Assembly: GCA_026018925.1 (NCBI GenBank)
Contig: JAKSZU010000008.1
Location: 13,061,626-13,125,625 of the forward strand
Direction of reading: 5' to 3'
Source of the DNA: Tupaia tana
Lineage: Eukaryota; Chordata; Mammalia; Scandentia; Tupaiidae
Length of the DNA stretch: 64,000 nt
Positions 4,441-58,345 of this stretch are shown here, piece by piece. How positions within the stretch are numbered: position 1 is the first letter of the stretch; every line of letters begins with the position of its first letter. The notes beneath the pieces were generated by a model. It worked only from the letters and a program-made list of their open reading frames with translations. It was not told the origin of the DNA and ran no database searches. Made by a program: the position numbers and the translations under genes.

Positions 4441-4668
4441 CCTAAATATACACAGATTTATTTGTTAATTATACCATAACAAAGCTAGAAAATACAGAGT
4501 TATTAGGATATTAAAATATATATATTTCATTAAAGTTTAGGAATATTTAGAAATAGGGAGCAAAGTACAGAAATAAATGAATGCTTACACATACGGAATA
4601 TTATTTAGACTCATTTCAAATGTTAATTAAAAAATTAATGATCTGACACATTAAAATCTCTATGATTG

Positions 4669-4926
4669 GGACTAGCAGTTAGCGTAATGGCTATGTCGCT
4701 GGACTCCCACGTAGTCGACCGCGGTTCAAGTCCTGGACCCGGTGGCTTAAAACTCACGCCGGGCGCGTGTGCGTGCGTGCCCAAGATCCCGAGAGGAGAA
4801 TGGAGGAGAAGGGATTGCGGCGTGGCCATCCCCCCTGGGGGGTGATTTCTCGCTTTCTATCTCTCTGTCTCTCTCTGTCTGTCTGGCGAGCGCACGCGCC
4901 CTATAGCAAAAACCTCTCCCAAAAAA

Positions 4927-4959
<33 letters not shown>

Positions 4960-12681: not shown

Positions 12682-12700
12682 AAAAAACATAAGGATAGAG

Positions 12701-13170
12701 AAGAGGCCAGGCCTTCAGAAGAAGGTTCCATATGGCTCCAGAGAACTAGGTATTTCAGGGAATGAAGATTTTCTACTGATAATTCAGCCTCCAGCAAATG
12801 AGCTAGCAGCAGAAGAGGCCAGGCCTTCAGAAGAAAGTTCCACATGGCTCCAGCGAACTAGGTATTTCAGGGAATGAAGATATTCTACTGATAATTCAGC
12901 CTCCAGCAAATGAGCTAGCGATAGGGAGCCTCTCCCCCCCCCCCCCCCCCCGCACCCCCAGCCTTCTATCTCTGTTTCTGTGTCTCTCCCTGCTTCTATC
13001 TTCCCTTTTTTTTGTAACTTTTCCTTTTCACATTGTTTTTACAAGGCAAAGTTTTTCTCTTGTTCTCAGCTCCACCTTTTATCTTGTTAATTATCGCTCT
13101 GGTCCTCCCACCCAGGCAGAAGAGGCCCAGGCCTTCAGAAGAAGGTTCCACATGGCTCCAGCGAACTAGG
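12701..13170 (+). repeat. 5' monomer repeats of the HAL1-like element
   Basis: A unit starting aagaggccaggccttcagaa recurs at 12701, 12813 and, with one extra C, 13120. The first two are 112 bp apart and almost identical over their full length, down to caaatgagctagc. The third is only about 50 bp long. A 17-base C run (about 12935-12951) and a pyrimidine-rich stretch separate the second and third. Tandem promoter monomers are typical of several L1 lineages. Confidence 0.8.
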
Positions 13171-13533
13171 TGCAAGTGCACTGCGTGGTTTTCTATTTTT
13201 TGATTTTTTTTAAAAAAACCCCAGAAAAACAGTAATTACAATTTTTTTCGTTTTTTTTCTTTTTGTTGTTGTTTCTCTCTCTTTTTTTCATTTTCCTTTT
13301 TCTTGTCTCTCCACCCTCCAATATCCATTTAATGTGTTTTTAGACAGATCTAAGAGCACTTTAGCTAAACATCCAATTACTAATAGGGTTAAAATATTCC
13401 TCAATATCTACTGAATCTGCTGCGCCAGTGATTACAACAGAATGGCAAAGAGATTCTAGATCACCTCTATCTGCTTGCTCCTGAATATTCAGACTGAACT
13501 TCAAGAATTTGAAAGAAACACACCATCTATCAG

Positions 13534-14533
13534 ATGACAAGAAATCACCGCCGGATCACAAGAAATATGGGAAAACAAGAAAATACCTCTCCTCCAAGGC
13601 AAAAGAGTAACTCTTCTTCATCCACAAGCAGTTCGGTGAAAATCATGGAAATGTCTGATAAGGAATTTAGAGCATTCATAATGCCGAAGCTAACAGAGAT
13701 GGAAGAGAAGAGAGATAATGAACTGCTAAAGAGAAAGGAGAAAGAAGTTGACGAGTTCCAGGAGATGAGGAAATTCTTGCAAGATCTAAAAGAGGAATTA
13801 CATGCTTTACAAAAGAGTCAAACGAAACTGTTAGAAATGAAGTCTATAATACAGGAAGTCAAAATCTCCCTTGAAAGTATTAAAAGCAGACTAGATCATA
13901 CAGAAAATAGAATCTCAGATGTAGAAGAGAAAATGGCTGGCCTAGAAAAATCCACCACGAAGACTGAAAATGGCCCAAAAATTTGAGAATAATATACGAG
14001 AAGTACTAGATACCATCAAACGTCCAAATATCCACATAATTGGCATTCCAGAAGGTGAAGAGACCCATAAGGGCATTGATAATCTATTCCATGAAATCCT
14101 GCAAGAAAACTTTCCAAACCTAGAGAGGCATTCGAAGATCCAGTCCCAAGAAATACAAAGGAACCCAAATAGAATCAACCCAAGAAGATCTTCTCCAAGA
14201 CACATTATAGCCAGGTTGACCAAAACCACAGACAAAGACAAGATACTAAGATTGGCAAGAGAAAAACATCAAGTAACCTACAAAGGACATCCCATCAGGC
14301 TAACAGCAGATCTCTCATCGGAAACAATGCGAGCGAGAAGAGAATGGGAAAATATATTCGAAGTGTTAAGAGAGAAGCAATTTCAGCCAAGAATATTGTA
14401 CCCGGCAAGATTATCTTTAAGGTGGGAAGAAAAGACAAGAACATTCTCAGATAAACAAAACCTGAAAGAATTTACCAGCACCAGACCAGATCTCCAAGAA
14501 GTTCTCAAGGGTGTGCTATATCAGGAAAATTAA
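13534..14533 (+). pseudogene. LINE-1 ORF1p, one frameshift
   Basis: ORF1p is the RNA-binding trimeric chaperone of LINE-1. The N-terminal half (13534-13986) is charged and heptad-rich, a coiled coil (for example LKEELHALQKSQTKLLEMKS). The C-terminal half (13970-14533, another frame) holds the RRM and C-terminal domain, with PNIHIIGIPEGEE, the basic stretch SPRHIIARLTK and ILYPARLSLRW. The halves overlap and sit one frame apart, so about 1 base was gained (or 2 lost) between about 13950 and 13990. The total of about 333 codons is near the usual L1 ORF1 length of about 338. The rest of the reading frame is intact, so the element is young. Confidence 0.9.
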
Positions 14534-14774
14534 ATACAGACACACGGAAATAAGAGTTCATAAACTAAGAAAGTGGCCAACTTAATCATAGGGACAAGTC
14601 TGGAGTTGAACATTATATCTCAGAATTTAATCGGGAAAATTGAACCAGAACAGAAGATAAAAGTACATGAGACTGATAGGTTCATGCACCTACCATTTGA
14701 ACAGAATCCTAACCTGTTTCCTAGCTTTAAGCAAAGTTCCTTAGTGTTTCTTTGATTTGAGTTAAAACTGGTTT

Positions 14775-14778
<4 letters not shown>

Positions 14779-14805
<27 letters not shown>

Positions 14806-15057
14806 GAGAGATTTTTGCTGTAGGGTGTGTGCGCTCGCCAGACAGACAGAGAGAGACATAGAGACAGAAAGCGAGAAATCACCCCCCCGGGGGGATGGTC
14901 ATGCCGCAATCCCTTCTCCTCCATTCTCCTCTCAGGATCTTGGGCACGCACGCACATGCGCCCGGCGTGAGTTTTAAGCCACCGGGTCTGGGACGCGAAC
15001 CACGGTCGACTATGTGGGAGTCCAGCGACATAGCCATTACGCTAACTGCTGGTTCCC
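14779..15057 (-). repeat. SINE-A, young, nested in the HAL1-like element
   Basis: Reversed full-length copy, with poly-T at left and gctaactgctggttccc at right. The 15-bp TSD aaaactggttttctt is perfect at 14764-14778 and 15058-15072. It post-dates the HAL1-like insertion. Confidence 0.95.
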
Positions 15058-15094
15058 AAAACTGGTTTTCTTAATAGTAATCAGTGAACTCACC

Positions 15095-15817
15095 ATTGAA
15101 AATAGTTAGATTATGTAAGAAATTGTGTGATCAATACAATGTGGGTGGGAAAGGAATGGAAGACAATTGTAGACACCAGAGATAGTGTGAGAAGAGGGTG
15201 GGAAAGGACAGAGGGTCAGAAAGAGGGGTAAAAATAATTCTAGGAACTAGAAATGGAAAATTTTTTATAATATGCATGATTAAGTCACTATGCAGTATAT
15301 ACTGGATGGGAAATCACATTTTGTATGCTGTGATGATGCTTAGGGAAAGAATGTAAATTAAGTTACAAAAACAAAAAGTTTCAGGAAAAAAAAATTTCTA
15401 TTCAATGACTGCAGTAAGATATACAGCCCCAGCTAGGTGCTACTTTATAGGATGTGTAAAGTTAGACTTGAGTTCACGGAAATGTATATATCACCTGTGT
15501 TTGCTATGAAAATATTTAGATTAATTTAGGTCTTTAGTAATTCAATAAAATGTGGGGGGAAAACAGTATAGAAAGCAAACATAGATACCAGAGACAGTGT
15601 GAGAGGAGAGTGGGAGATGGCAGAGGGTAAGAGATAGAGAATCAAGGAAGGGGGTGGGGGAAGCAAAACATACAGAAAACAAGAAATGGAAGATTATTTG
15701 CTGACAATAACATGTTTGTTGATCTGCTTGATTGAGACAATATACAGTGTACTCTGGATGGAAAATCTCATTTTGTATGCTGTAATGATGTACAGTGAAT
15801 GAATGCAAATAAATAAA
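15095..15817 (+). repeat. Tandem duplicated 3' region of the HAL1-like element
   Basis: The stretches 15095-15363 and 15500-15817 share an ordered set of blocks: ttagatta..., agacaccagagatagtgtgag / agataccagagacagtgtgag, a purine-rich GGGA tract, acaatatacagtgtactctgg-like text and cattttgtatgctgtgatga / cattttgtatgctgtaatga. The two copies differ clearly, so the duplication is older than this insertion or was inherited from the source element. Confidence 0.75.
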
Positions 15818-16079
15818 AAAAAAGAAGAAAAAAAAAACATAAGGATACTTTCAGTAGAAAAGCTGAAAGTAAAGAAATGGAAAAATATACACCGTAATTC
15901 TGAGCCCATAATTTCCTTAAAGGGAAAACTGTGCCAAAAATACACATCTAATGCCAGATACTTTAAGTGTTTTAAAGTGTCTGTTGTATTACAAGTACTG
16001 GATTACAGGCTTAGACCCACGAGCTGCCCAAATGTGTGTTTCTTTGATGTTTTACTGTATGTCTCATTTATGACTTAAG

Positions 16080-37878: not shown

Positions 37879-37894
37879 CCTTTCTTTCTTTCCT

Positions 37895-37966
<72 letters not shown>

Positions 37967-38048
37967 TCCTTCCTTCCTTCCTTCCTTCCTTCCTTCCTTC
38001 CTTCCTTCCTTCCTTCCTTCCTTCCTTCCTTCTTTCCTTCTTTCTTTC

Positions 38049-38108
<60 letters not shown>

Positions 38109-38174
38109 TCCTTCTTTCCTTCCTTCCTTCCTTCCTTCCTTCCTTCCTTCCTTCCTTCCTTCCTTCCTTTCTTT

Positions 38175-38230
<56 letters not shown>

Positions 38231-38403
38231 TCCTTCCTTCCTTCCTTCTTTTCTTTCCTTCTTTTCTTTCCTTCTTTTCTTTCCTTCTTTCTTTCCTTCC
38301 TTCCTTCCTTCCTTCCTTCCTTCCTTCCTTCCTTCCTTCCTTTTTCTCTTTCTCTCTTTCTTTCTCTTTCTCTCTCTCTCTCTCTCTTTTTCTTTCTTTC
38401 TTT
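37879..38403. repeat. 525-bp (TTTC)n/(TTCC)n microsatellite
   Basis: Long blocks of TTTC alternate at least three times with blocks of TTCC, then end in CTCTTT sequence. On the TOX sense strand it reads GAAA and GGAA. It runs directly into the T-rich end of a reversed 7SL SINE and may have grown from that tail. The open frame across it is an artefact of the repeat. Confidence 0.97.
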
Positions 38404-38659: not shown

Positions 38660-38935
38660 TATTTTAAAAAGTTTATTTCTTCTGGGAACCAGCAGTTAGC
38701 GTAATGGCTATGTCGCTGGACTCCCACGTAGTCGACCGTGGTTCGCGTCTCGGACCCGGTGGCTTACAACTCACGCCGGGCGCGTGTGCGTGCGTGCCCT
38801 AGATCCCGAAAGGAGAATGGAGGAGAAGGGATTGCGGCGTGACCATCCCCCCTGGGGGGTGATTTCTCGCTTTCTGTCTCTATGTCTCTCTCTGTCTGTC
38901 TGGCGAGCGCACGCGCCCTATAGCGAAAAACCTCT

Positions 38936-38971
<36 letters not shown>

Positions 38972-42519: not shown

Positions 42520-42762
42520 ATTGTGAAAAACTGAATGTTTTCTCTCTATGATTAGACACAAGGCAAGATGTTGCCTCTTACTATTCCTATTCAACATTGT
42601 ACTGAAATCCTATCTAATGTGATAACACAGAAAAGAAAATAAAAGGTCATACAGATTAGAAAGGAAGAAATAAAACCATCTCTGTTTACAGGTGACATGA
42701 CTGTCTATGTAGAAAGCCCCAAAGAATCAACAAAAAACCTCCTGGAAATAAGTATGCAGGAA

Positions 42763-43008
42763 CATTTGCCAGCCCGTGACATAGAGAGTAAGGTAGCTGG
42801 ATCCCACATGATCAACGTTGTGGTTCAAGTCCTAGACCCAGCAATTTGAGAACACGCCAGGCTCATGTGCGTACATGCCTGAAATCCTGAAGAAAGAGGG
42901 AAACGGAGGAGATGGGATTGTGACGTGACCAATCTCCATGGAGAAGGTTTCTCTTGCTATTCGTCTCTCTATGTCTCTGGCAAGCACACATGCTCTCTAG
43001 GAAATTAG
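42763..43008 (+). repeat. SINE-A inserted in L1
   Basis: ttgccagcccgtgacatagag head, B box gtggttcaagtcc, gtgcgtacatgcctgaaatcc, short A-rich end. Confidence 0.82.
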
Positions 43009-43599
43009 TAAGAATAAAATAACCAGTAGAACACCGAAGAAAAATTTAAGTTGGAGGCCTCATACTGACAGACTTCAAGATTTACTATCAGGCTACAATA
43101 ACAAAGACAGCATGATCCTGGCAAAAGAATACACACATAGATCCGAAGAACAGAACAGAGAGCCTAGCAGCAGATCTACACAAACATTCATTATTCTTTC
43201 AAAAAAAAAAAAAAGATAATTCAATGGGGAAAGAGTCTCTTTGACAAATGATGTTAGAGCAATTAGGCATTCATAATTTTTTTAAAGTTAAACAGGATCT
43301 TTCATTCAGTATTGATAAGAATGCAAAATGATACATCTACTATGGGAGAGAATTTGGCAGTTTCTTATAAAATTAAATATAGCTTTCACACATAATTGCA
43401 ATCCTGTACCTGGGGATTTACCCACCTGATGTGAAACTTATGTCTATACCAAAACCTGCTCATAGGTATTTATAGCAGATTTATTCACCAAAAAAGTCTC
43501 TCAAATGTGGATGGATAAGTAAATTCTAGTATATCTGTCCAGTGGAGCATTATTCAATAATAAAAAGAATTGCACTATCAAGCCATGAAGACACAGATG

Positions 43600-58059: not shown

Positions 58060-58345
58060 AAACCATATTTTAAAATATTTTTATTATTATTTTTATATTC
58101 AATCACTGTATGTCATTAGAACATGCAAAGTAAATTTCCCAGAATGAATACACTGTATATTAGTTCAGCCAAAGATATTACCACACACATCAACAGATAA
58201 TTTTTCCATTTTGTGTCCCTTAAATGTTTTGCTTCTTTCTTTTCCCCCAAGCCCCTCCCTCTCACCATCCCCCCTTTCCCACCCTCCTCCCACCTGTCTC
58301 CAGTTGCTCCCCATGCCATTGTACCTTTCAATATTTCAGCTTCTG
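58060..58345 (-). repeat. Probable L1 3' end, antisense
   Basis: T-rich left end, blocks shared with 3160-3310, then a pyrimidine tract (cccccaagcccctccctctc) that mirrors the G-rich purine tract of L1/HAL1 3' UTRs. Confidence 0.5.

Follow-up and report, generated by a model that had tools for sequence, protein, structure and literature searches.

The element at positions 12698-15831 of the window, the whole 64-kb stretch of DNA analysed here, very probably belongs to a non-autonomous, ORF1-only LINE-1 family of the HAL1 kind, whose RNA would often have been spliced in the 5′UTR before integration. The HAL1 features found here are an L1-type ORF1, a missing ORF2, an ORF1-to-3′ structure shared between copies, and a TSD with a poly(A) tail.

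All parts of the element lie on the plus strand except for a nested SINE. As the initial annotation had claimed, a 16-bp TSD, AAAAAACATAAGGATA, brackets the element and can be read directly in the sequence on both sides (12682-12697 and 15832-15847). The 5′ copy is preceded by CACTT, and the target is a TT/AAAA site. The 5′ monomers reported in the same annotation are two units of 112 bp each (12699-12919) and are 96% alike. They are followed by a 5′UTR body (12923-13533), which is retained in unspliced copies and includes a partial third monomer (13118-13171) after CCCACCCAG. ORF1 occupies 13534-14533 and the spacer 14534-14778, and an A-rich tail with AATAAA closes the element (15807-15831). 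The spacer, the 3′ region, and the A tail had been described earlier; all three are present, but two features in this part had been overlooked. One is a SINE in reverse orientation (14779-15057), which was inserted later and has its own 15-bp TSD (14764-14778 and 15058-15072). This SINE of about 280 bp is highly repeated, with many copies in the window (for example, 4668-4952 and 38683-38965), the best of which are 92-95% identical to the nested one. The other concerns the 3′UTR, which was duplicated in tandem and has degenerated; its unit 1 (15097-15371) and unit 2 (15507-15821) are 66.6% identical. The claimed absence of ORF2 held up: a tblastn search with the ORF2 protein of L040, a complete L1 of the same genome, gave no match inside the element at E values up to 1e-4, and its sole matches in the 64-kb window (42604-42819 and 43035-43163) lie outside the element.

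Is this structure confined to the window? The host assembly (2.95 Gb) was searched with the ORF1 and spacer of the window copy, a query that stands in for the 5′UTR-joined-to-spacer query proposed earlier. Of the 40 scored places, one is the window copy and the remaining 39 have 93-96% identity to it. I retrieved 20 of these 39 places with flanks, and all 20 copies share a single order of ORF1, spacer, and both 3′ units and lack ORF2. A second query, taken from copy L022, comprised the final third of ORF1 and everything downstream of it into the 3′ flank; it gave 40 scored places (L022 included), all of which are contiguous from ORF1 through the spacer to the 3′ region, with three reaching only query position 1148-1243 of about 1310. 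The scored places were ranked by similarity to the query and hence favour close copies, and the candidate numbers of the first look (7,759 and 8,180) are not copy numbers. A 27-mer that spans the ORF1 stop and the start of the spacer (14518-14544) was found at 1,285 + 1,291 = 2,576 places with at most one mismatch, while its reversed control was found at none. It matches 19 of the 20 HAL1 loci within one mismatch and is 8-11 mismatches off in the seven L1 loci checked. Since the 27-mer sits ahead of the deletion point (around 14605), this number counts the ORF1 ends of the HAL1 family and not the absence of ORF2. TSDs adjoin the first 5′ homology in 11 of the 20 retrieved copies and are plausible in three more, while no convincing TSD was seen in the remaining six; where found, they differ between copies. 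Thus, the recurrence of ORF1 with the same spacer and 3′ end and without ORF2 indicates a real HAL1-type family, as had been proposed, and not a deleted L1. The outcome named in advance as contradicting this, a junction confined to the window with ORF2 in its relatives, was not obtained. One of the loci, L026, consists of two HAL1 copies lying tail to tail about 0.5 kb apart.

In the window copy, ORF1 is split over two overlapping frames, one of 150 aa and one of 187 aa starting from 13970, which agrees with the single frameshift noticed earlier and places it around 13960-13986. The C-terminal piece corresponds to the L1 RNA-binding and C-terminal domains, with hits to Pfam PF02994 (E 5e-32) and PF17490 (E 3.5e-22), and the N-terminal piece has weak matches under the Pfam cut-offs. 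The ORF1 of copy L010 matches the LINE-1 ORF1p chain 2ykp with an E value of 4e-64. An open ORF1 of 333 aa was found in six of the 20 fetched copies, and the window copy is not among them. It may be asked whether ORF1 is a passive passenger of an RNA that is copied for its A tail alone, its own ORF1p being dispensable. The small number of open frames would agree with this, and SINEs and mRNAs generally move without an ORF1p of their own. On the other hand, dN/dS on the HAL1 ORF1 stem is 0.31 (codon bootstrap 0.18-0.85), so that even the upper bound stays at 0.85, and copies that belong to a recent, star-like spread retain an open frame. I therefore regard a passenger role as unlikely. ORF1 was under constraint over much of the HAL1 stem, part of which is possibly older than the loss of ORF2. 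Among the open ORF1 copies, pN/pS is 0.57, a value that includes neutral tips.

The monomers join the 5′UTR body at differing points between copies, and the number of monomers varies as well. The joins point to two donors in the monomers and four acceptors ahead of ORF1. In window coordinates, donor D2 (CTAG|GT) lies at 12749|12750 and 12861|12862, and donor D1 lies at 12920|12921, where nine of ten unspliced copies have GT and the window copy has AT. The exons after the acceptors start at 13344 (A1), 13387 (A2), 13429 (A3), and 13493 (A4), each with AG directly before it. The window copy itself is unspliced in the 5′UTR. The 5′ ends of 40 places (the window and 39 others) were scored with splice patterns written with all 40 ends in view and with single changes permitted (L059, L061, L068, L071, and L073 among others); 22 are exact donor-acceptor joins, 10 are unspliced, and eight are neither. 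The exact joins are D1|A1 (4), D1|A2 (5), D1|A3 (8), D1|A4 (1), D2|A1 (1), D2|A2 (2), and D2|A4 (1), and eight of these 22 come from the ends of 19 places added after the junctions were first read. Near but inexact joins are present in six ends (L017, L027, L028, L063, L066, and L072), while L064 enters acceptor A2 from a non-monomer sequence and L076 is 5′-truncated. Genome-wide, 92 D1|A2 and 69 D1|A3 places were counted against 395 places unspliced at A2 (161/556), where duplicated segments contain some of the junction places (clustered sets on C419 and C420), the 27-bp unspliced-A2 pattern is compared with more degenerate junction patterns of 27 and 29 bp, and the 395 places include copies spliced to A1. 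A 19-bp unspliced-D1 pattern was found at 768 places; it is shorter than the junction patterns and so was not set against them.

Many HAL1 copies thus look as if they were RNAs spliced in the 5′UTR and then reinserted. The same variants might have arisen from template switching or from recombination between monomers; the differing monomer numbers and the six of 40 joins that depart from the splice sites are in keeping with such events. Against this origin, the exact joins fall on four recurrent points, each of which comes right after one of just 18 AGs in 362 bp, and GT follows donor D1 in nearly all unspliced copies. The phylogeny of the copies bears on the question as well. On a 21-copy tree, the splice class requires 12 changes versus a shuffled mean of 12.8 (79 of 200 shuffles were as low), the labels of L017, L027, and L028 being near joins and not exact ones, while the monomer type requires three changes versus a shuffled mean of 8.4 (none of 200 as low). 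The splice class is therefore unlinked and the monomer type linked to the phylogeny, which suggests that splicing mostly arises anew and that the monomer type is inherited. Template switching or monomer recombination as the general cause is accordingly improbable, and splicing is the preferred explanation of the joins.

Are spliced copies always dead ends? The 21-copy tree agrees with this idea, but one subfamily speaks against it. Copies L013, L016, and L060 have in common a leader upstream of the monomers (L013:1866-1985). A search with the leader gave 493 candidates, of which 40 were scored; the leader is complete or almost complete at 13 places, 12 of which have the D1|A3 junction. L013 and L016 are sisters in the 21-copy tree (99/96). 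The remaining 27 scored places have the first 75 bp or so only, and in L079 and L080 this piece is followed within three bases by GTGAGT or GTAAAT, which resembles an exon end. Bases 83-125 of the leader are antisense L1 ORF2. The leader derives from a multi-copy, exon-like piece; L064 also carries it and reaches A2 through other sequence. L081, the third of the 27 shorter places inspected, is a further HAL1 in which a different piece separates the leader from the monomers. The idea that the first 75 bp are exon 1 of KRAB zinc-finger genes was not supported, the nearest KRAB match to the leader noted among the 150 scored of 631 candidates being 74 kb off on the other strand (C420). The shared leader, the nearly constant D1|A3 junction, and the sister copies make it probable that the ancestor of the subfamily was a spliced copy that had captured exons. 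Alternatively, the leader elements themselves may be unspliced and their RNAs constantly spliced in the same way. Founding by a spliced copy is what I prefer for this subfamily. Since the monomers, the presumed promoter, precede the donors, spliced RNAs would reinsert with monomer sequence in front. It is a tentative proposal, which I hold at somewhat below an even chance, that 5′UTR splicing is no dead end in this ORF1-only LINE lineage and that at least one subfamily goes back to a spliced copy that had captured an upstream exon. If true, an element could acquire a new 5′ end through splicing.

From which L1 did the family arise? An RVT_1 search revealed two kinds of L1 with a long open ORF2 in the genome, in classes of 1290/1331 aa and 1322/1343 aa. 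One kind is represented by L040, which has monomers of about 158 bp, an ORF1 of 322 aa, and an ORF2 of 1,320 aa; the other is represented by L039, which is cut in ORF1. The alignment of HAL1 to both continues across the ORF1-ORF2 gap and extends about 30 bp into ORF2. In the window copy, the spacer therefore consists of the former ORF1-ORF2 gap, an ORF2 relic of about 30 bp from 14573, and a remainder unmatched in L039 and L040. The start codon of ORF2 has been lost, the ATG of L1 being GTG in 21 of 21 HAL1 copies. The HAL1 5′UTR has no match in L039 or L040, and the 3′UTRs of these two L1s are just 41-46% like the HAL1 3′ units. In a tree of 12 ORF1 sequences (six HAL1, three L1-B, and three L1-A), the HAL1 ORF1s group together (100/100); their stem measures 0.17 and their tips 0.016-0.020. 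Their nearest sampled intact L1 is L1-B, at 77-78% identity. The three L1-B copies are 99.6% identical in ORF1 and have ORF2 frames of 1320-1343 aa, and the three L1-A copies are 99.0-99.6% identical in ORF1. That the window element is an isolated deletion derivative of an ordinary L1 has practically no chance of being right: L1s with a related ORF1 and an open ORF2 do exist in the genome, but this reading is refuted by the family copies with their identical structure and differing TSDs, by the separate ORF1 branch, and by the lack of matching 5′ monomers or a matching 3′ end in the two L1s compared.

The 3′ end has relatives of another kind. Unit 2 resembles eight old L1-type 3′ ends at 70-76%, and five of these have an ORF2 C-terminus directly upstream. 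In the tree of 3′ units, the two HAL1 units are 66-70% alike and unit 2 versus the old L1 ends gives 64-73%, so unit 2 is roughly as near to those ends as it is to unit 1. A duplication within HAL1 cannot be shown by this tree, which has three groups and no outgroup. The window has another old L1-type repeat 3′ end related to that of HAL1 (58075-58345, minus strand), whose other 39 scored places are 76-82% identical.

With HAL1 as a family of its own, the following course of events is proposed. An ancestral L1 would have lost ORF2 from about codon 10 up to the 3′UTR, and the remainder would have kept spreading. The RNA presumably starts in the 5′ monomers and yields its own ORF1p, which would coat that RNA. 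Before integration, the 5′UTR would often be spliced from one of the two monomer donors to one of the four acceptors ahead of ORF1, and an ORF2p borrowed from L1 would copy the RNA at TT/AAAA nicks. The outcome would be SpIRE-like copies that retain monomer sequence and the start of ORF1. Mobilisation in trans by an L1 ORF2p would fit the long open ORF2 frames in the genome, and the L1-B copies are possible helpers.

The described human HAL1 families are mostly old. In the present family, 19 core copies compared in pairs differ by a median of 0.036 in ORF1 and of 0.049 in the spacer and 3′ end, which comes to about 2% per copy when halved. The age was taken from the ORF1 tree and from trimmed distances and not from the 21-copy tree, whose alignment included some 3′ flank and whose end branches are therefore too long. 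Judged from these sequence divergences, the family is one that spread recently on a mammalian scale, with its copies forming a star-like spread. Near-identical copies were absent from the scored places of the two genome queries (40 per query), the nearest matches being 96% to the window copy and 97% to L022. Thus, of the recent activity suggested by the initial annotation, a recent spread stands, while present activity is unproven.

HAL1 encodes ORF1p only and arose several times in mammals (PMC5753468), and human HAL1 has nearly 2,100 copies with a poly(A) tail and TSDs (PMC5322556). The present family likewise is derived from L1, has ORF1 only, a poly(A) tail, TSDs, and many copies, and presumably uses the L1 RT/EN; it differs in its 112/120-bp monomers, its duplicated 3′UTR, and its frequent 5′UTR splice joins. 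The HAL1 kind is already known, and the present family is probably a novel form of it. The exact intra-5′UTR junctions in inserted copies, read here from genomic DNA, resemble human SpIREs. These make up 131 of 6,609 full-length L1PA1-6 (about 2%), show lowered promoter activity, and are called dead ends (PMC5860796). The joins of the present family are far commoner (22/40 5′ ends, and 161/556 places for two junctions); moreover, monomer sequence stays upstream, and one spliced lineage seems to have propagated. A third likeness is to LINE-1 5′ transductions, in which mRNA exons are joined at splice sites, as described in PMC13174262. In both cases an outside exon is joined to the element at splice sites, whereas here this takes place on a HAL1 and is common to a subfamily with 13 near-full leader places. 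The combination of HAL1 and SpIRE was not found in the open-licence papers searched for it, and the main text of PMC13174262 is without HAL1. Copies with a few percent divergence beside L1s with an open ORF2 offer a way to ask how ORF1p works apart from ORF2p, and the splice record serves as a natural test of whether 5′UTR splicing holds a LINE back or renews it.

Elsewhere, no tRNA was called within the 64-kb window, and a long CTTT repeat of 130 units (37880-38403) yields a spurious 199-aa frame.
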